DNA from: a virus
Reading direction: 5' to 3' (one strand)
IMG/VR virus record: IMGVR_UViG_3300034104_000496
Location: 1-34,872 of that record
DNA: 34,872 nucleotides
How positions within the stretch are numbered: position 1 is the first letter of the stretch; every line of letters begins with the position of its first letter. Position numbers and translations under genes: made by a program. This document shows positions 11,833 to 32,020 of this stretch, in pieces. Below the pieces are notes generated by a model. The model made no database searches, was not told the DNA's origin, and worked only from the letters and a program-made list of their open reading frames with translations.

Positions 11833-12244
11833 TGACTTGGGCTTCTATGATGTTGGCGTCTTCGACTGTCAGCGCTCGCTTAGTCGCCTCAGCCAGCGCG
11901 CCAGTGATTGATATGCGCTGATCTACTTCGACAGATATAGCCTGCTTGGCCACCCAGCCGTGTTGATGTTTGAGAATTTCTAACGCTGCCTTAGCGTCGC
12001 CGTTAAGGGCGGCTTGGTGCATGACTTTGGACAGTTCGATCTCGCCATCCGCTTTGCCTTTTTGCGCGGCGAGTTCCACCACGGGGTCAAGTTGCGTGAG
12101 TTGTCTGTATTCAATAGGCAGCATGCCTGCGGCGAGCGCTAGTGCGTCGCCTTTGAGGCCCAGCTTGGCCGCGTCATATACCGCCTTCAAGCGCGATTCT
12201 GTCGCTTCGACCTTGCGCGGTGTAAATGGAATCGAATGGAACAT
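11807..12244 (-). CDS. Terminase small subunit
   Basis: The product has 145 residues. The first 50 residues (VEATESRLKAVYDAAKLGLK, GDALALAAGMLPIEYRQLTQ) look like a helix-turn-helix that would recognise the packaging site. Residues 55-100 form the helical oligomerisation region, including GDAKAALEILKHQHGWVAKQ, a sequence style I associate with phage small terminases. The start has GGAG 5 bases upstream. It is the first gene of the leftward late block, facing the repeat array. Its position directly before the large subunit with a 26-base overlap confirms the role. Confidence 0.88.
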   Translation of the reverse strand: MFHSIPFTPRKVEATESRLKAVYDAAKLGLKGDALALAAGMLPIEYRQLTQLDPVVELAAQKGKADGEIELSKVMHQAALNGDAKAALEILKHQHGWVAKQAISVEVDQRISITGALAEATKRALTVEDANIIEAQVNAIDHIQR

Positions 12245-12400: not shown

Positions 12401-12792
12401 CGTGGGTCGTGTGGGTCATGTGGACAATGTGGACCATCAGTTACAAGTCGCACGGCCACGCAATGTGTGGACAATGTGGACAATCATTTTTCTTTTGTCC
12501 ACATTGTCCACATTTTTCTTTCGCGCCAGTTCTTTCTTTTTGCGTGGGAATTCCCTGCGCGTGGATTTGTGGACAATGTGGACCATTTGGACCACCGTTT
12601 TAAATCGGCGCCGGATGAGACGTCAACCTAGCGTTACACACACCCATACATATATCTCTACTTCAAACTTTTATCTTTTTTTTATTATCCACATTGTCCA
12701 CAACCCTTCACAGACCGCGCCGTTGCTGGCTTTGCGTGTGGACAATCGTCAACCCTCACTAAGTCCACATTCTTATCCACGCATGGTCCACA
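12401..12792. repeat. Array of 9-bp DnaA-box-like iterons; candidate replication origin
   Basis: The 650-base gap between divergent blocks carries about 17 copies of a 9-bp unit, TGTGGACAA on the plus strand or TTGTCCACA when inverted. Exact plus copies start at 12419, 12466, 12475, 12568 and 12737; exact inverted copies start at 12495, 12504 and 12694. TGTGGACCA variants start at 12428, 12577 and (inverted) 12784. Other variants start at 12401, 12410, 12586, 12685 (TTATCCACA, the classical strong DnaA box), 12761 and 12773. Several are joined head to tail with an exact 9-bp period. TTGTCCACA is the DnaA-box form known from GC-rich bacteria such as Streptomyces. Origin function is inferred. 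Operators for a phage repressor are the alternative. No credible gene lies here. Confidence 0.7.
12466..12512. repeat. Perfect 18-bp inverted repeat built from four iterons
   Basis: Two direct units (12466-12483) are followed by an 11-base T-rich spacer (12484-12494) and two inverted units (12495-12512). The arms are exact complements over 18 bases. The right arm is followed by TTTTTC, so the RNA could also act as a rightward terminator. As DNA it could extrude as a cruciform or hold a protein dimer. Confidence 0.75.
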
Positions 12793-15243: not shown

Positions 15244-15271
15244 AAGCCCCTAGCAATAGGGGCTTTTTTTT
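15244..15271 (+). terminator. Rho-independent terminator of the early block
   Basis: AAGCCCCTA, a GCAA tetraloop and TAGGGGCTT form a perfect 9-bp stem, followed by a run of T to 15271. It ends the rightward small-gene transcript. The T run is on the plus strand only, and it overlaps the last codons of the converging primase gene. Confidence 0.92.
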
Positions 15272-17558
15272 ACTTCACAAGCCTGACAGACATTGGCGAC
15301 GGCACATCTTCAACAAGGCGGCGCAGTTCAGACTTGGACACATCGACCATATCTGGCGCGCAGAAAATATGCTTCTTAGAGTCAAACTCCCGCGATTTCA
15401 ATCTGCCCATGTCAACCCATCCGGCCTCTTTCAGGGCATGCAATAAGGCAGGCTGCGGAACTTTTACGCCAGACGGCGCTGCGCCTGCAAGGCGGTCACA
15501 CAGCGCGTGGAATGGCGACGCCACCACACCCTTGGAAAACTCACCCATGCGGGTACGCATCAACTCGACAAGATACGATTCGGCCATGCTCATGCCATGC
15601 TCAACCAAGTTCATCTTAAACTCGGTCAACATGGGGGCCGCACCAGGATTAAATGCGGCCACATCACGCGAAGCAAGCCAACCGCTAATGGCCGCAAAGC
15701 CCCCCGCCTTGTACCACTTCCACATCTTCTCAGCGGCCTGCGCGGTCATGCGCGGCGCGTGTGACCACACGCAAAACCAACGGCGGTCTTGCGAGTCCAG
15801 ACTAATTGGCACAGGGTCATTAGAAAACGCCAACACAAACACGCGATTGGCCATCTGGTAGGGGTGTAGGCCCTTGCGGTTAACTGTCAGCATTTCGGGA
15901 GGCGCTGCAATGATTGGTTTCAATTTGTTGGCCAAGGCCCTGCGCTCTTTGGCGTCTGGTTCTTTCAACTCGTTCAGGATGAGGATCTCAGACTCAAGGG
16001 CATAACCAAATTGGCTGCTCATGGTGTCGTTGTCCAAGAGGCCACGATTCTTAAGGTGTGGGCCACACACGGCCCAGATGAACGGCGCCCACATGGTGTC
16101 CTTGCCAGACCCTTGGTCACCACCATGCAGAACGGCGTGGTTGATCTTGGTCTCAGGGTGCTGCACTTTGAAGGCCATCACATCAAAGATATGCTCCAAC
16201 TCGTCAGCGTTAGGCACTAGCGCCCTGCAATGCTCAAGCCATGGGGTCACATCACCAGACCCGACCGCAGGGCGCGCATCACGCCAACGATTGCCATACA
16301 GATCACCATCACGGGCCACAATGACCGACTCGCCTGCGGCGTATGTAATGCCGACAAGCGCCTTTGCGCCCATGGTCTGGCGATTCTCGTCAAACGACAC
16401 AGACGCCTCAACCTTAGGGTTTTTACCATGTATGGACTTGCAAGGGATGTGGCGGAACAAGGCGTTAAAAGTCTGGCGTGAAATCTCACGGCGGTCTTGC
16501 ATGTCAAAATAAGACTCGTCGTCTTGGATGTACGCAAAGCGCTCATACCATTGCGACTTCTCGACACGGCCCAGCTCCTTGCGCTCAACTTCAGCAATCA
16601 CGGCTGCGGCGTCGTCTGTGAACATATCGGATGGCGTCAACTTGGACAATGCCTGATCCATGGCCATGGTCAGCAGTTCTTCACGCAAACCAGGCGCATG
16701 CTTTGGGCCGCCATTGTCTGACACCCACTTAAGGAACGCGCTAGAGTCGACTTCAAGGCAATGGCTATGCAGACAGCAATATGCACGATTAGCCGGCATG
16801 TAACGGCCCTCTGGATTGCCGTCAGTATGTTCGGCTGAGTTGGGGCAGATCACGCCTGCCCAGCCCTCAGCGTTGGGTTTAGACAAGAGCAGACCTTGGC
16901 CAGACAACCAAGCCATCACATCGTCTGCGCCATCGTCTGTCAATCGGATCGGGCGCACACCTACTGAGTCAGCAGGCGCGGGAACAACGTCAAGCGCTGC
17001 ACAAATCTGCTCAAGCGTAAATTCGCGCTCTGGGTGAAACTCAACCAGCTTCGACGCAAAGTTGTTGCGGTCTGGCTTCAAGTTGATCGAGCCAGGCAAG
17101 CGGAAGTTACGCACGGCATTGATCGCGCCAGAGTCGGTGTAGCCTGCGTCTGCAATGGCTTTGATGGCCGCGCTGAAGTCAGCCTTTGTAGGTTGTTCTG
17201 AGAAGGCATAACCCCATTGAAAAGAACCTTCAGACGTCTCCATCTTCCAAGTCGGCTCAAGCGGCGGGATCTTGGCCTTTGTGCCTACATCGTCAAGCAC
17301 CATGACAAGCACATACTCGCAGTTAACGGCAGACGCTGAGACGTGGCCATCCTTGAAACGGTCAATGATGAAGCTGGCCGTGTTGCCGTAAATCGCCCAG
17401 TCAGGCTTGGTGCGTGCGGTAGGCAACATAGCAGGCCATGTGCATTTGATCGCGCCGTCAGGGAAAAATTGCAGTTCTTTGCCGATTGGCTTTTGACGCA
17501 CGATCAATGCTGTTTCGCCCTCAGGGGCCAAAGAAATTAAAAAATCAAGAAAGTTCAT
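15270..17558 (-). CDS. Primase/helicase: RepB-like primase plus superfamily 3 helicase
   Basis: The product has 762 residues. Residues 1-190 look like an archaeo-eukaryotic-type (RepB-like) primase: the acidic pair D89-D90 in YVLVMVLDDVGTK, then AVRNFRLPGSINLKP at about 148-162. Residues 238-267 hold a zinc-finger-like cluster (ICPNSAEH, then YCCLHSHC). Residues about 440-600 are a superfamily 3 helicase: Walker A GGDQGSGKD at 479-487, Walker B ILILNE near 525, sensor FVLAFSND near 574 and DRRW at 591-594. The C-terminal 150 residues may be a DNA-binding or winged-helix part. The same protein can therefore prime and unwind DNA. The start overlaps the polymerase stop by 4 bases (ATGA), so it is the last gene of the replication operon. 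Confidence 0.88.
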   Translation of the reverse strand: MNFLDFLISLAPEGETALIVRQKPIGKELQFFPDGAIKCTWPAMLPTARTKPDWAIYGNTASFIIDRFKDGHVSASAVNCEYVLVMVLDDVGTKAKIPPLEPTWKMETSEGSFQWGYAFSEQPTKADFSAAIKAIADAGYTDSGAINAVRNFRLPGSINLKPDRNNFASKLVEFHPEREFTLEQICAALDVVPAPADSVGVRPIRLTDDGADDVMAWLSGQGLLLSKPNAEGWAGVICPNSAEHTDGNPEGRYMPANRAYCCLHSHCLEVDSSAFLKWVSDNGGPKHAPGLREELLTMAMDQALSKLTPSDMFTDDAAAVIAEVERKELGRVEKSQWYERFAYIQDDESYFDMQDRREISRQTFNALFRHIPCKSIHGKNPKVEASVSFDENRQTMGAKALVGITYAAGESVIVARDGDLYGNRWRDARPAVGSGDVTPWLEHCRALVPNADELEHIFDVMAFKVQHPETKINHAVLHGGDQGSGKDTMWAPFIWAVCGPHLKNRGLLDNDTMSSQFGYALESEILILNELKEPDAKERRALANKLKPIIAAPPEMLTVNRKGLHPYQMANRVFVLAFSNDPVPISLDSQDRRWFCVWSHAPRMTAQAAEKMWKWYKAGGFAAISGWLASRDVAAFNPGAAPMLTEFKMNLVEHGMSMAESYLVELMRTRMGEFSKGVVASPFHALCDRLAGAAPSGVKVPQPALLHALKEAGWVDMGRLKSREFDSKKHIFCAPDMVDVSKSELRRLVEDVPSPMSVRLVK

Positions 17559-19459
17559 TTGCCATACCTTTTCATAGTTTCAACTTCAGCGGCCAAGGGC
17601 AAGCCATCTGCCCACGCTGGCGCTGTACACATCACACGTTTTAAATTCTCTGCCGCTTCTGGGTCGGCTGTTTCGACGACGATTTCGTCATGCACATGAA
17701 GCACGACGTCATCGAGTTGTCTAAGGGAATGTCGAAGTAGATCATTGGCGACCGCCTGCGTCACATTTTCACATGCCAAGCCTTTCCAAAGGCGGGCGCG
17801 CGGCCATTCTTTTGCATCTTGCGCGGGCTTCCATGCCGCCTTGGCATAACTGACGCCCTCCGATTCCAATTTGGCATAGGGGTAGCACAAGATTCGGCCA
17901 GATGGTAGGGCATACCATAGGTGCAAGCCGTCAAACAAATATGTTATACGGCCAGCCTTAAATTCACGCCCCTTGTTTCTCATTGCACGGGTATAGGATT
18001 CCTCAAGCGCCGCCCAATAAGGTACGCTCCAAGGATTAGCACGCCGCCAGCCATCAACCATGCGTTTGGCAACTGGCTCAGGAAGACTGATCCCATAAGC
18101 CCGACCCATAGCAGCAAAAGCGCCCACACCGCCAGCAAATCCGCAGGCAAGCTCTTGAACCTTTCCAATCTGGCGTTGGTCTTTGGTAACGTCTGCCACG
18201 CGAACATTAAATGTTGCGGCGGCGTTGACTTTATAGACGTCTTCCCCAGTTCGGAATAGTTCCAATTTATCGGCGCCTCGCCCTGAGAGCCACGGGTTGA
18301 CACGAGCTTCGATGGCCGCCCAGTCTGCCACGACAAAGTGCTTGCCTGTTGCAGGGATGAGCGCTGGTCTAAGCATTCCCTTAAGTACATCGGTAACGCG
18401 CTTTCCATACCGAGGCACGATTGCGTGTCCTCTGACCATGGCTTGCCTGACGTCTTCTGGCTCGTCAGCGCACTTGCGTGTGAAGTTGTGGACTTGGGCG
18501 CCGTAGGATGATGCGCGGCCTGTTGCTGAACCGCCAGCAAATACGAACGCTCCTCGTACCCTCTGATCCTCCTCATCCGCCAGACAGCTAAGTCGGTTGA
18601 ACTTTGCCACAGACGACGCCCAGAGGTCGTCGGCGCATTGGATAACTTCTTGGACATCGGCAGGGACTTCATCGGGGTTCTCCATGAGTAAAAGGTTGGC
18701 TCGTACAGTCTTGTCAATAGAGTACTTGCCATCCTTCTCCATCAACTTCTTTGCTTCATCACCCACGCGCTCAAGCACCCACTCACGCATGCGTGGCGAC
18801 CTGACGCTAGTGATTGCGCCGCCAGTGACTTCCTTGACGATCTGTTCGATCTCAATGAGTTCATCGGAGGCAAACTTCACGGCTGCTTGGCACAGCGGCA
18901 CATCGACCAACACGCCGCGATCATTGATGCGCTCGTTGACGTGGTAGTCTTGTAGTTCTTCAGCGCTTAAATCACGCATGGCCTTGCTGATTGCACGCAT
19001 GGCGCGCACGTCTTGCTCACAGTACTGGATCATTTCGGCCATGAGTTCAGGCGAGTCTTTGAATGGCGGCACGCACATCAAGCGAATTAATTGCGCGCCC
19101 CTGTGATCTTTTTTCATAGACGCGCCAGCAAAACGGCCAACGTCCTCAAGACTGCCAGGCGCGCAGTTGGCGCGGGCTTGTGTTGCAGTGCAATAAAACT
19201 GCTCCAACTTAAAATTTATCTGCAACACATACCAAAAGATTAAGCGCTCAAACGCAGCGTTATGCGCCCTGATCTGGCCGGTGTAATTGCGAACTCGCTC
19301 AGGGAAGGGCTGGGACGGCACCCACGTCACCACTTCCTCATCGTCAAACGCATACGACATGCACAGCACGTCGGTGCTTGCATCCTGCGCGTAGTTGTAC
19401 ACGCCCTTAGAGCGTAGGTCGCATGTACTGCGTGTCTCAAAGTCAACCCACAAGGTCAT
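17555..19459 (-). CDS. DNA polymerase, family A, with 3'-5' exonuclease domain
   Basis: The product has 634 residues from the ATG that overlaps the previous stop (ATGA). The exonuclease domain has D6/E8 (WVDFETR), N67 (AHNAAFE) and D150 with Y146 (QYCEQDVRA). The polymerase domain has motif A at D379 (VVADWAAIEAR), motif B at about 429-445 (RQIGKVQELACGFAGG) and motif C at H590-D591-E592 (VHDEIV). The glycine-rich helix in motif B and the short length are typical of phage family A enzymes. All catalytic residues are present. It copies the phage genome and works with the primase/helicase made from the same transcript. Confidence 0.94.
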   Translation of the reverse strand: MTLWVDFETRSTCDLRSKGVYNYAQDASTDVLCMSYAFDDEEVVTWVPSQPFPERVRNYTGQIRAHNAAFERLIFWYVLQINFKLEQFYCTATQARANCAPGSLEDVGRFAGASMKKDHRGAQLIRLMCVPPFKDSPELMAEMIQYCEQDVRAMRAISKAMRDLSAEELQDYHVNERINDRGVLVDVPLCQAAVKFASDELIEIEQIVKEVTGGAITSVRSPRMREWVLERVGDEAKKLMEKDGKYSIDKTVRANLLLMENPDEVPADVQEVIQCADDLWASSVAKFNRLSCLADEEDQRVRGAFVFAGGSATGRASSYGAQVHNFTRKCADEPEDVRQAMVRGHAIVPRYGKRVTDVLKGMLRPALIPATGKHFVVADWAAIEARVNPWLSGRGADKLELFRTGEDVYKVNAAATFNVRVADVTKDQRQIGKVQELACGFAGGVGAFAAMGRAYGISLPEPVAKRMVDGWRRANPWSVPYWAALEESYTRAMRNKGREFKAGRITYLFDGLHLWYALPSGRILCYPYAKLESEGVSYAKAAWKPAQDAKEWPRARLWKGLACENVTQAVANDLLRHSLRQLDDVVLHVHDEIVVETADPEAAENLKRVMCTAPAWADGLPLAAEVETMKRYGK

Positions 19460-20157
19460 AGTGAGCAGACCCTGCAAGTAGGTGCATTACCATCACCGCG
19501 AATCTTGCGGCCTTTCTCAAACTCAACGGCCAAGTCTTTGAGCGCAGCAGGCCACGCATCACGCTGTGGTGATCTGAACGTGTGGCCCAGCTTCTCCTCG
19601 ATGGCCACGCCTCTCGCATATTCTTCAGGATAGTCACGCCAGAGGTCACGCCACTCACCCAGACGCTGATAGGGGCACACGGCGCAGTCGGTGCGACGCG
19701 GTATTGACACGCCGCGCTCACCTAAGTATTTCCAGACGTCTGCTTCTTTCCAACCCCACTCACGCATGGGAAAGCGAATCTTCATGTCTTCGCCGTAGAT
19801 GCCGCGCCTAGCTTCTTCGTCAGCGCGCAGGCCAACGTACAAGACAGACCCTTCGGGCAACGATTCAAAATATTTAATGGTCGGCTCGATCTTGAGGATG
19901 CGGGTACACCAGCGCGCCCTGAAGTTGGGCAACATCTGCATGTCGTCAATCAGGCCGTACAGATCGGTCGTGTGGCCAACCTTCTTAATAGGCAGGCCAA
20001 GCATGCGCTCTAACTTTGCCCAATGCTCAACCATCTCAGGCAACTCGTTGCCCGTGGCGTTGCAGATTAGTTCATACTCACGCGGCTCGACTTCCATAAG
20101 CCGAAGCGCAAGCGCCGTGGAATCTTTTCCACCACTCAGTCCAATAACATGCTTCAT
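19456..20157 (-). CDS. PAPS-reductase/DndC-like adenylyl-transferring protein
   Basis: The product has 233 residues from the ATG with AAAGGAG upstream. The P-loop SGGKDST (8-14) is the signature of the PAPS reductase/N-type ATP pyrophosphatase family. FRARWCTRILKIEPT carries C84, and CAVC (158-161) plus CRVC (228-231) add four cysteines, enough for an iron-sulfur cluster. GLRADEEARRG matches the substrate loop. The family includes sulfate-assimilation reductases and DndC, which acts in DNA phosphorothioation. Phage copies lie in replication operons and usually have no proven substrate. No DndA, DndD or DndE homologue is present in this window. A role in base or backbone modification, or in sulfur metabolism, remains open. 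Confidence 0.85.
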   Translation of the reverse strand: MKHVIGLSGGKDSTALALRLMEVEPREYELICNATGNELPEMVEHWAKLERMLGLPIKKVGHTTDLYGLIDDMQMLPNFRARWCTRILKIEPTIKYFESLPEGSVLYVGLRADEEARRGIYGEDMKIRFPMREWGWKEADVWKYLGERGVSIPRRTDCAVCPYQRLGEWRDLWRDYPEEYARGVAIEEKLGHTFRSPQRDAWPAALKDLAVEFEKGRKIRGDGNAPTCRVCSL

Positions 20158-20201
20158 AAGCGTCTCCTTTCCAAAGCCCCCTGTCACGGGGCTTCAGAAA
20201 G

Positions 20202-27288: not shown

Positions 27289-29240
27289 TATCGAGCCAAT
27301 GCGTTTTGGTTTTCTTCAGGCGCAAGCGCGTTCTTAACTGCAACACCAGCCGCCGCAGCAGTGCCTGGCTTCCAAGTTTGCGGTTTAGTCATCAAGTTAA
27401 ACACACGATTACGTTCAGCGGCAGGCAGCGTCTCTAGTAAATCGGCAGCGCCTTGCGGCGTTTTCATGGCTTGCGTTAGCTGGGCCATGGTTTTAGCGCC
27501 AATGCGCTGTTCCAATTCGCTAAGTGTTTTATTACCAGCAGACGCCCAAAAGTTTAAAAGCGAAGGGAAGCGGAACCGTGAAGTCTCTTGCTTAAGCAAT
27601 TGCGCCAACGCCGCGCCGCCTTCGGTTACTTGTTCTTTAATCGCAAGTTCAGTTAATCTTTTCTCAGCTTGCTTTTGCAAGACCGACATAGTGTTGTCGC
27701 TTAGTTCCTTAGCAATGTTGTAACTGCCAGTGCCGAGGACTTTTTCAACAGCGTCTGGCGATTCATTTTGCACCAAACGAACAAACGCGTCTTTGTCGGT
27801 TTTCCACAACTGCGCGGCTTCGCCAGTCAACTTCTTCTCGGCAATGTTACGCATGCCCTTGGCATGTGTTGTCAGATAGTCGCGCCAACCAGCACCACCC
27901 GCACCTTCAATTGCGTCGTCGATGGCGGGCTTGATCTTGGCCAACACGCCAGAGGCCAGATTGCGCTGGGCTGTTGCGTCTGCACCTGGGCGCAGTTGGG
28001 CAATAGCGGCGTTGACAGAATTCTTACGGATAGCTTCTAAAGCGTTGGCGTCAATGACGCCGCCTTGGCCAGTCCACTTGGCGATGTCGTCAGCCACGTT
28101 CTTAACCGCGCCGCTGATCAGATCGTTACCAGCAAACGAGGGGTTGTCTGCTGTTGCAGAAATACGCTGGATAAGCGATGTGCTTTCCAAAGGCTTGATG
28201 CCAACAGAGCGCAAGGCTTTCTCTGCGCCAGTCGCCTGAGCAACAAATTGCGCGGGGTCAATCTTAGCGCCTGAGCCAGCCAACACGGCCAAGTCATTGG
28301 CTGCACGGGCGCCTGCCTCATCAGCAACGTACTGACCCAAGTTAGCGCGCTTAAGCGACGATTCGCGCATGGGCGTTGTGATTGTGCTTAAGTTTGCCTT
28401 AGCCAGTTCATTGGTTGCGCGCACATCCGCCGCAGTTGCGCCGCCCGCTAATTCGGCTAAAGCGTTGCGTGACTCACGCTCGCCTAACAGTCGTGCCTTA
28501 CGAACAAACTGTGGATCTTTTTCTAGCGCGTTTTTAACCAGCGCTTGCCACGCTGGGTTATCAATTTTTGCGGTTAGCTCGGCAACGCTAGCGTTAGCAG
28601 GCGCGTTTCGCAGAGCATTAACGACTTGAGGTAAGTCCTCGCCCATTGCTTTTTGAGCAATAGACGCTGCCTTTTGTTTAGGAATCTGACGCAAGTCTGC
28701 AACTTTACCGGCTACATAACCTACTGCTGGGCCAATAAGACGACCGCCAGCTTCGTAGGTAGCGCCTTCAAGCACATTACGAACTGGCTCAACTACTTGC
28801 GCTGCGCCTTGGCGTGGGGCTTTACCGCCGATATAAATGTCGGCTAGGTTAAGCGCTTCTTTGGCCATGCCGTAGCCAAGGCCTGCACCGCCTACTGCAC
28901 CTGTCGCTGTACCAACACCAGGCGCTACAAGAGTGCCCGCGCCAGCACCCAACAAACCGCCGCCTGCCGCGCCCAACATCTCAACTGTAGGCGTGATGAA
29001 CTCACGAACGCGCTCGTATGTTGTAGGCGGTTTACGCTCGGCGGGGATACCCGTGTCGCTACTGAGTTTAGGTACGGCAACGGCTACACCAAATCGTTGG
29101 CGTATAGCGTTTTGCGTTTCTGCGTTTGCGCCGGTAAAGTTTGTGTCCTGAGCAGAAAATTTGTTAAAGATTGCCTGCTTAGTAGCTTCGTTGGCGTTGA
29201 CGTAATTTGGGTCTGTAAGGATAGAAGACAGGTTTGCCAT
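27288..29240 (-). CDS. Ejection (internal virion) protein, gp16/gp20-type
   Basis: The product has 650 residues with AAAGG before the ATG. Residues 1-50 contain a motif repeated in ejection proteins (LSSILTDPNYVNANEATKQA, TGANAETQNAIRQRFG). Residues 88-124 are a glycine zipper (AAGGGLLGAGAGTLVAPGVG), a membrane-inserting feature. Residues 130-640 are alanine-rich helices. It is the third of three large ejection-type genes in the order seen in P22 (gp7, gp20, gp16). It should travel inside the capsid and help form the channel for DNA entry. The exact P22 equivalent is not certain. Confidence 0.78.
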   Translation of the reverse strand: MANLSSILTDPNYVNANEATKQAIFNKFSAQDTNFTGANAETQNAIRQRFGVAVAVPKLSSDTGIPAERKPPTTYERVREFITPTVEMLGAAGGGLLGAGAGTLVAPGVGTATGAVGGAGLGYGMAKEALNLADIYIGGKAPRQGAAQVVEPVRNVLEGATYEAGGRLIGPAVGYVAGKVADLRQIPKQKAASIAQKAMGEDLPQVVNALRNAPANASVAELTAKIDNPAWQALVKNALEKDPQFVRKARLLGERESRNALAELAGGATAADVRATNELAKANLSTITTPMRESSLKRANLGQYVADEAGARAANDLAVLAGSGAKIDPAQFVAQATGAEKALRSVGIKPLESTSLIQRISATADNPSFAGNDLISGAVKNVADDIAKWTGQGGVIDANALEAIRKNSVNAAIAQLRPGADATAQRNLASGVLAKIKPAIDDAIEGAGGAGWRDYLTTHAKGMRNIAEKKLTGEAAQLWKTDKDAFVRLVQNESPDAVEKVLGTGSYNIAKELSDNTMSVLQKQAEKRLTELAIKEQVTEGGAALAQLLKQETSRFRFPSLLNFWASAGNKTLSELEQRIGAKTMAQLTQAMKTPQGAADLLETLPAAERNRVFNLMTKPQTWKPGTAAAAGVAVKNALAPEENQNALAR

Positions 29241-31325: not shown

Positions 31326-31685
31326 TCAGTTCTCCTTGACTAGCATACCGCCATCAGATTCTTTAAACCCAAGCCGTTTCAATATATCGTACATGTAATC
31401 ATGCCCATGCGTAACTTTTGTAGTTACTTTTGGCCCGCTAAAAAGTTGTCTTAGCAAACCTTTTGTAACCCAAACGCGCCGCCATTCAGGGAGAATGGAA
31501 ACATGTAACTCATCATCTTTTCGATACACCGCGCCGATAACGCTATCGTCACGTTTAATGGCCTTAACTGTCCAATCTTTTACCGCCGCACAATAATCTT
31601 CAAAAACCATTGGTGCGTTCCAATCGGTAGCTTCGTAACCAACGCGAAGCGCTGTCTCACGATCATCTACCAATTGAGTTGTCAT
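31326..31685 (-). CDS. Head assembly protein, gp14-like (GNAT-type fold)
   Basis: The product has 119 residues with GAGGTGAC before the ATG. The sequence has a GNAT-like order of strands and helices (VIGAVYRKDDELHVSILPEW and RRVWVTKGLLRQLF, then MYDILKRLGFKE). Proteins in this position in P22-like phages (gp14) belong to DUF2824 and are needed for head maturation. The acetyl-CoA binding loop is not evident, so enzymatic activity is unlikely. The gp14 identity is inferred from order: it lies next to the gp7-like gene on one side and the small structural gene on the other. Confidence 0.6.
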   Translation of the reverse strand: MTTQLVDDRETALRVGYEATDWNAPMVFEDYCAAVKDWTVKAIKRDDSVIGAVYRKDDELHVSILPEWRRVWVTKGLLRQLFSGPKVTTKVTHGHDYMYDILKRLGFKESDGGMLVKEN

Positions 31686-32020
31686 TAGGTCACCTCACGC
31701 CCAGAAACGCGAATGTTGATTGCGCTGGCTGTGCCTGCAATTGTACTGATAAAGTCGCCCACGCCAAGCACTTGACCAACCAGTTCAGGGAACGTATAGA
31801 CCTCAGACGCTTGCAAGGTCTTGGTCTTGGTGATCAAGTTGGTGTTACCCGCAGAGCCAGCAACAGTAACTAAGTTTACGCTGATCGTAGCGGCAGATGC
31901 GCTGATGTTAGTCGCTGTGAACTTGTCAATGATGGCTGTAACGCCAGTCGCTGTGTACTGGGTTGTTTGAGCATTTTCGGCAAATTTAGCCGGTACGAGG
32001 ACTTTGACGGTGACTGTCAT
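31685..32020 (-). CDS. Small beta-sandwich structural protein
   Basis: The product has 111 residues with GGAG before the ATG. It is threonine-, alanine- and valine-rich with even strand alternation (TATGVTAIIDKFTATNISAS, ATISVNLVTVAGSAG, VYTFPELVGQVLGVGDFIST). This suggests an all-beta decoration or tail accessory protein. The stop overlaps the gp14-like ATG by one base. It lies between the needle-position and gp14-position genes, where P22 has no equivalent. The function is not assigned. Confidence 0.7.
   Translation of the reverse strand: MTVTVKVLVPAKFAENAQTTQYTATGVTAIIDKFTATNISASAATISVNLVTVAGSAGNTNLITKTKTLQASEVYTFPELVGQVLGVGDFISTIAGTASAINIRVSGREVT

Follow-up and report, generated by a model that had tools for sequence, protein, structure and literature searches.

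Analysis of the window, i.e. the whole stretch of 34,872 bp considered here, a virus contig without terminal repeats, reveals a dense array of short repeats in the gap between the TerS gene, starting at 12244 on the minus strand, and the early open reading frames that run from 12832 on the plus strand. Twelve units with at most one mismatch from TTGTCCACA, eight of them exact, lie within 374 bp (12419–12792); dinucleotide shuffles of the same 500 bp yielded 0.31 units on average and at most 3. Three further sites (12586, 12761 and 12773) carry two mismatches and are compatible with the layout, which brings the array to about 15 units; the dense array reported in an earlier note, made from the sequence alone, is therefore present, whereas its number of about 17 copies in 400 bases is not reproduced. 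Units are joined at exactly 9 bp at 12419/12428, 12466/12475, 12495/12504, 12568/12577/12586 and 12685/12694, and the strand order of the clusters is ++, ++, --, +++, then 90 bp free of units, --, +, and finally degenerate units. These positions agree with the exact 9-bp period and the clusters on alternating strands described previously, as do the orientation of TerS and the early frames, which point apart, and the presence of TTATCCACA at 12685, where a classical box had been noted. No second cluster of TTGTCCACA-like units was found in the 34.9 kb window, in line with the claim that the array has no counterpart there. The note had further listed a primase with an SF3 helicase and a family A polymerase; the primase-helicase indeed matches DUF5906 above the cut-off and contains an SF3-type helicase. 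All features are collected in Table 1.

Table 1. Position and strand of the array units, the spacer and the replication genes discussed in the text.
Feature	Position	Strand	Source
Tandem unit pair TGTGGACAA TGTGGACCA, 9-bp period	12419..12436	+	
Tandem unit pair TGTGGACAA TGTGGACAA, facing the pair at 12495..12512	12466..12483	+	
Tandem unit pair TTGTCCACA TTGTCCACA (plus-strand reading), opposite strand	12495..12512	-	
Units TGTGGACAA TGTGGACCA TTTGGACCA (TTTGGACCA with two mismatches), left border of the spacer	12568..12594	+	
Unit-free spacer, 90 bp	12595..12684	.	
AT-rich core, at least 80% AT, candidate melting region	12645-12691		
Tandem unit pair TTATCCACA TTGTCCACA (plus-strand reading), right border of the spacer	12685..12702	-	
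Lone unit TGTGGACAA	12737..12745	+	
Degenerate units at 12761 and 12773, plus TGGTCCACA at 12784	12761..12792	-	
Primase-helicase, 762 aa, DUF5906, SF3-type helicase; proposed initiator, covaries with the unit	15270..17558	-	
Predicted C-terminal winged-helix domain, about residues 646-750	15309..15623	-	AlphaFold2
Strand and wing, residues 717-739; R719, K721, R723 and D726 track the unit	15342..15410	-	
Family A DNA polymerase, upstream neighbour of the primase-helicase	17555..19477	-	

One 60-bp stretch of the spacer ranks 12th in ease of melting among the 34,813 of the whole window. The anatomy of an iteron origin, short repeats at one place beside an AT-rich region, is thus present, and the candidate replication origin proposed earlier is upheld as regards place, layout and AT-rich spacer; its DnaA part is not, as discussed below. 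The cumulative GC skew over the window, which had been suggested as a check, shows no turning point at the array.

About 240 related loci were fetched by the C-terminal half of three different primases; as they were chosen by this part of the protein, the array motif had no role in their selection. A search of related phages had been recommended in the note; an array of at least five units occupies the same position in 195 of the 213 related loci with enough upstream sequence, and in 153 of the 213 an AT-rich spacer (median 101 bp) separates facing units. Relatives whose TerL is 94–98% identical to that of the window have the array in the same place, several of them with other units, such as ATGACCCAA at a 9-bp period or TGAC[CT]CACA at a 10-bp period. 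A single pattern, T-N-R-Y-C-N-A-N-A, fits these units in one register with few departures. The unit varies among phages that are otherwise 92–100% identical, being TTGTCCACA, TGACCCAAA, TGAC[CT]CACA, TAGCCAACA, TTGCCCACA or others, and across the fetched loci it includes TTGTCCACA, TGACCCAAA, TGACCCACA, TGACTCACA and TTGCCCACA, with TTGCCTACA, TTGTCCATA, TAGCCAACA and TGACTTACA as further types.

Some relatives carry additional repeats in this region. Upstream of TerS, locus L625 has 10-bp class C units around an AT-rich part and a cluster of TAGCCAACA/TAGCCAACATTGCCCACA nearer to TerS, and this two-unit control region may be a transitional array; L625 was discarded as an exception in spacing, because the units beside its AT-rich part belong to the 10-bp class. 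In many phages of a G007-like clade (L450, L352, L353, L430–L501) a second series of repeats separates the array from TerS; it is unrelated to the 9-bp units and made of imperfect palindromes, AAGTTAGT..GCACTCACTAACTT (CACTAACTT inverted at about 11 bp), which are possibly operators. In L011, L075, L082, L086 and G018 a 12-bp tandem repeat lies near TerS (with a CTGGTGCGC core in G018).

We further compared unit classes with the genes of these phages. The genome G001, the array of which is of class C, is 92–100% identical to the window in eight genes (TerS, TerL, portal, polymerase, single-strand-binding-like protein, exonuclease, helicase and head closure) and 70% identical in the primase-helicase. 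Class C primases retain the N-terminal part and diverge in the C-terminal half, and class B primases diverge mainly at about residues 421–460, 601–620 and 701–762. In a permutation test on close genomes, identity of the primase C-terminal half was 0.935 within and 0.703 between classes, and the nearest neighbour was of the same class in 18 of 18 cases; the same test revealed no class structure in TerS, TerL, portal, polymerase, ssb-like protein, exonuclease, helicase, Hc3 or scaffold. TerS or another gene as the reader of the units was consequently rejected, there being no class structure beyond the primase except in e65 and e74, small early genes between the array and the primase, the class signal of which is like that of the primase. 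Across 180 loci, the tree of the primase C-terminal half requires 31 changes of unit class and the TerL tree 65; the tree of the primase N-terminal part requires 55 (171 rows). This covariation suggests that the specificity of the initiator matches its repeats. In locus L361 a class C primase is joined to a class B array at a junction around 1450–1690, which is either an assembly chimera or a true recombinant.

The class signal of e65 and e74 is also what linkage to the primase predicts, and the covariation might then reflect linkage alone, with the array, the early genes and the end of the primase gene moving as one exchange block and no recognition involved. We consider this most improbable, as linkage would not single out the wing of the C-terminal domain, where the residue-to-base associations reside and hold in independent contrasts, and as a given wing segment reappears with its unit in primase lineages about 62–79% identical. 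Indeed, the class B segment LGRVASGD.[QP]SKKH accompanies TGACCCAAA in different primase backgrounds, of which the most divergent is 62% identical to its nearest reference; for the class A wing segment three backgrounds were found. When all 762 positions are ranked by association with unit differences at matched divergence, D726, K721 and R723 come out on top. Arg723 occurs with C at unit position 8 in 169 of 221 loci and Gly, Ser, Ala or Lys with A8 or T8 in the other 52, none crossing; independent pairs, counted on a tree built without the wing, support the link between position 723 and base 8 in 7 of 7 cases (p 0.016). For K721 together with D/E726 against T4 about 12 of 13 independent pairs agree and none is reversed (p 0.0005), T4 being always accompanied by K721 and D/E726. 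Leu719 is found with 10-bp spacing in 22 of the 25 loci concerned, an association resting on one tree event.

The rules were fixed before the analysis of a held-out set of 51 loci from other clades, fetched by the polymerase and sharing at most half of their array 15-mers with the earlier loci. Of the 47 with at least three units, 40 combine Arg723 with C8 and 7 another residue with A8 or T8 (27 and 3, respectively, under a stricter limit of five units plus a tandem pair), and K721 and D726 are present in all 14 held-out loci with T4. The residue-to-base code is incomplete: K721 and D/E726 occur without T4 at 14 loci, and a clade with A721/Q726 has mixed units. The distant relative MW202483 (primase 55%) departs from the rules and carries a different wing. 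L450 and L451 were rejected as exceptions to the code, since their arrays read TTGTCCACA.

These results bear on the nature of the units. TTATCCACA is the classical DnaA box and TTGTCCACA is a known form of it; both fit TTWTNCACA or its close variants, to which TGACCCAAA and other units of the relatives do not conform. The array might accordingly be a DnaA-dependent origin, at which host DnaA would bind the TTGTCCACA/TTATCCACA boxes and open the AT-rich region, and bacterial genomes offer some parallel: the 18-mer TGTGGACAATGTGGACAA has 61 sites in 257 Gb of bacterial and archaeal genomes, including a few that look like arrays, so that tandem TTGTCCACA is not exclusive to phages. Such an origin is nonetheless hardly credible here, as the arrays of close relatives, alike in place and layout, consist of units that are not DnaA boxes, e.g. 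TGACCCAAA, a change that is not expected of a DnaA box between near-identical phages, and as the unit follows a phage protein. Both observations argue that the array is not a DnaA feature, and the DnaA-box reading of the note is not supported; that the unit of this phage looks like a DnaA box is, as part of the explanation preferred below, very probably a coincidence. A protein with PF08299 (DnaA domain IV) was moreover found neither in the window nor in 40 related virus records, and a phage-encoded DnaA-like reader was rejected because PF08299 is found only in MW202483. The latter phage (MW202483.1; W01, L275) encodes a DnaA domain IV-like protein of 98 residues (PF08299, E 3e-19). Near its TerS there are two arrays of repeats, one of ATGTAAAC/GTTTACAT and one of CACTACCAA in 9-bp tandem; these features lie at about 28,000–28,800 and 31,423–31,719 of the record. 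A phage that combines a DnaA-type reader with a second array deserves a study of its own.

The AlphaFold2 model of the primase-helicase predicts the C-terminal winged helix with a pLDDT mostly above 90; it comprises helices 683–693 and 702–711, strands 715–720 and 729–733 and a wing at 721–728, and would place the tracking residues in and beside this wing, outside the recognition helix. With the whole protein, Foldseek ranks the C-terminal region of NrS-1 first (E 1e-12), followed by poxvirus and ASFV helicase-primases, SaPI5 PriRep1 with dsDNA (1e-5) and SV40 T antigen (8e-5); among solved proteins NrS-1 is the only match at the sequence level. The C-terminal domain alone gave nothing at E ≤ 0.001 in Foldseek, and VIA-align returned middling winged-helix matches only, the P4 origin-binding domain not being among them. 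Fold and anatomy support placing the protein in the wide class of SF3 primase-helicase initiators.

Taken together, we propose, with a probability of about 0.8, that the array serves as an iteron-type origin, which the SF3 primase-helicase of the phage itself binds and opens; the binding, the melting and the start of replication at the array are inferred. The note had offered a phage protein using the units as iterons as its alternative, and this idea is strongly supported, the units tracking the primase-helicase, which can now be named as that protein. In the proposed mechanism the primase-helicase would recognise the 9-bp units via the wing of its C-terminal winged helix, molecules on facing unit pairs would form helicase rings at either end of the spacer, and the rings would melt the AT-rich spacer and then prime synthesis for the phage polymerase. 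The SV40 origin also has short sites in facing pairs. The phage itself is, under the same explanation, most probably a freshwater, podovirus-like virus.

The location between divergent transcription units would equally suit transcription operators, bound by the primase-helicase or another phage protein, with the origin elsewhere, and Rep-type initiators may repress promoters close by. The easily melted spacer flanked by facing units speaks against operators, and a promoter scan found no more than chance; the tracking protein, furthermore, belongs to a primase-helicase family with known self-loading initiators among its members (PMC7581432). We therefore regard operators as unlikely and retain the iteron-type origin.

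By analogy, its mode of action would resemble those of P4 alpha, SaPI Rep and PLE RepA. P4 alpha is a primase-helicase, with a Toprim-type primase, whose winged-helix domain binds short origin repeats and which unwinds and primes (PMC4234260), activities that are predicted for the present protein; no direct link in sequence or fold from the window protein to the P4 domain was found. In contrast to P4, the array lies here about 2.5 kb from the primase gene, with the early operon in between; its units follow one another at 9 bp without a gap, and the specificity switches between phages that are otherwise almost identical. In SaPI Rep it is the C-terminal domain that recognises iterons, and Cch2 of SCCmec also uses its C-terminal domain to bind its putative origin (PMC7581432). 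These are self-loading helicase initiators, as is SaPI5 PriRep1, which turned up in the fold search with the window protein, and SV40 large T antigen is similarly an SF3 helicase that recognises its own origin (PMC7581432). The SaPI and SCCmec origins lie, unlike the present one, directly downstream of the initiator gene, and a residue-level code over hundreds of natural pairs was not found for them in the literature searched. PLE satellites show covariation, as in the present array, between the origin and the DNA-binding domain of RepA; this domain has been exchanged more than once, and the origin is attacked by a phage nuclease resembling it (PMC8263062). RepA differs in belonging to the RepA_N family, in using an N-terminal domain and iterons of about 30 bp, and in serving a satellite and not a phage; its specificity swap is experimental, that of the present phage inferred. 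NrS-1 primase-polymerase, the closest solved relative of the helicase part, has an 8-nt recognition sequence that occurs only twice in its genome, with no dense array (PMC7102993). No paper on the array or on the covariation was found in the open-access literature searched. What is new here is how many unit types there are, how fast specificity switches, and that single residues can be linked to single bases.

As the units track a few primase-helicase residues among near-identical phages, natural variation makes it possible to follow the joint change of origin and reader. Whereas initiator-origin pairs are usually studied singly, the roughly ten unit types seen in hundreds of close relatives constitute a natural experiment; they give base-by-base predictions for the wing of a winged helix, and the origin unit may become predictable from the primase sequence. 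That these near-identical phages, members of a widespread freshwater group, form several origin-specificity groups, switching repeatedly via the wing segment and the whole array under a residue-to-base code, is in our view an even bet. If so, each initiator would be blind to the origins of other groups, the wing segment would be switched by exchange or mutation, and selection could come from competition between co-infecting phages or from satellites that borrow replication; the code would relate R723 to the G opposite C8, K721 and D/E726 to T4, and R719 to unit spacing. A caution also follows, namely that dense perfect DnaA boxes in a phage need not mean DnaA.

As to other genes, the window contains at 19456–20187 (minus strand) a phosphoadenosine phosphosulfate reductase-like gene, inserted after the polymerase gene and present in few relatives. 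Phage relatives with the array and terminase genes were also found in bacterial bins, on contigs of a Rhodoferax MAG (L669) and a Burkholderiales MAG (L655), which hints at hosts among Burkholderiales.
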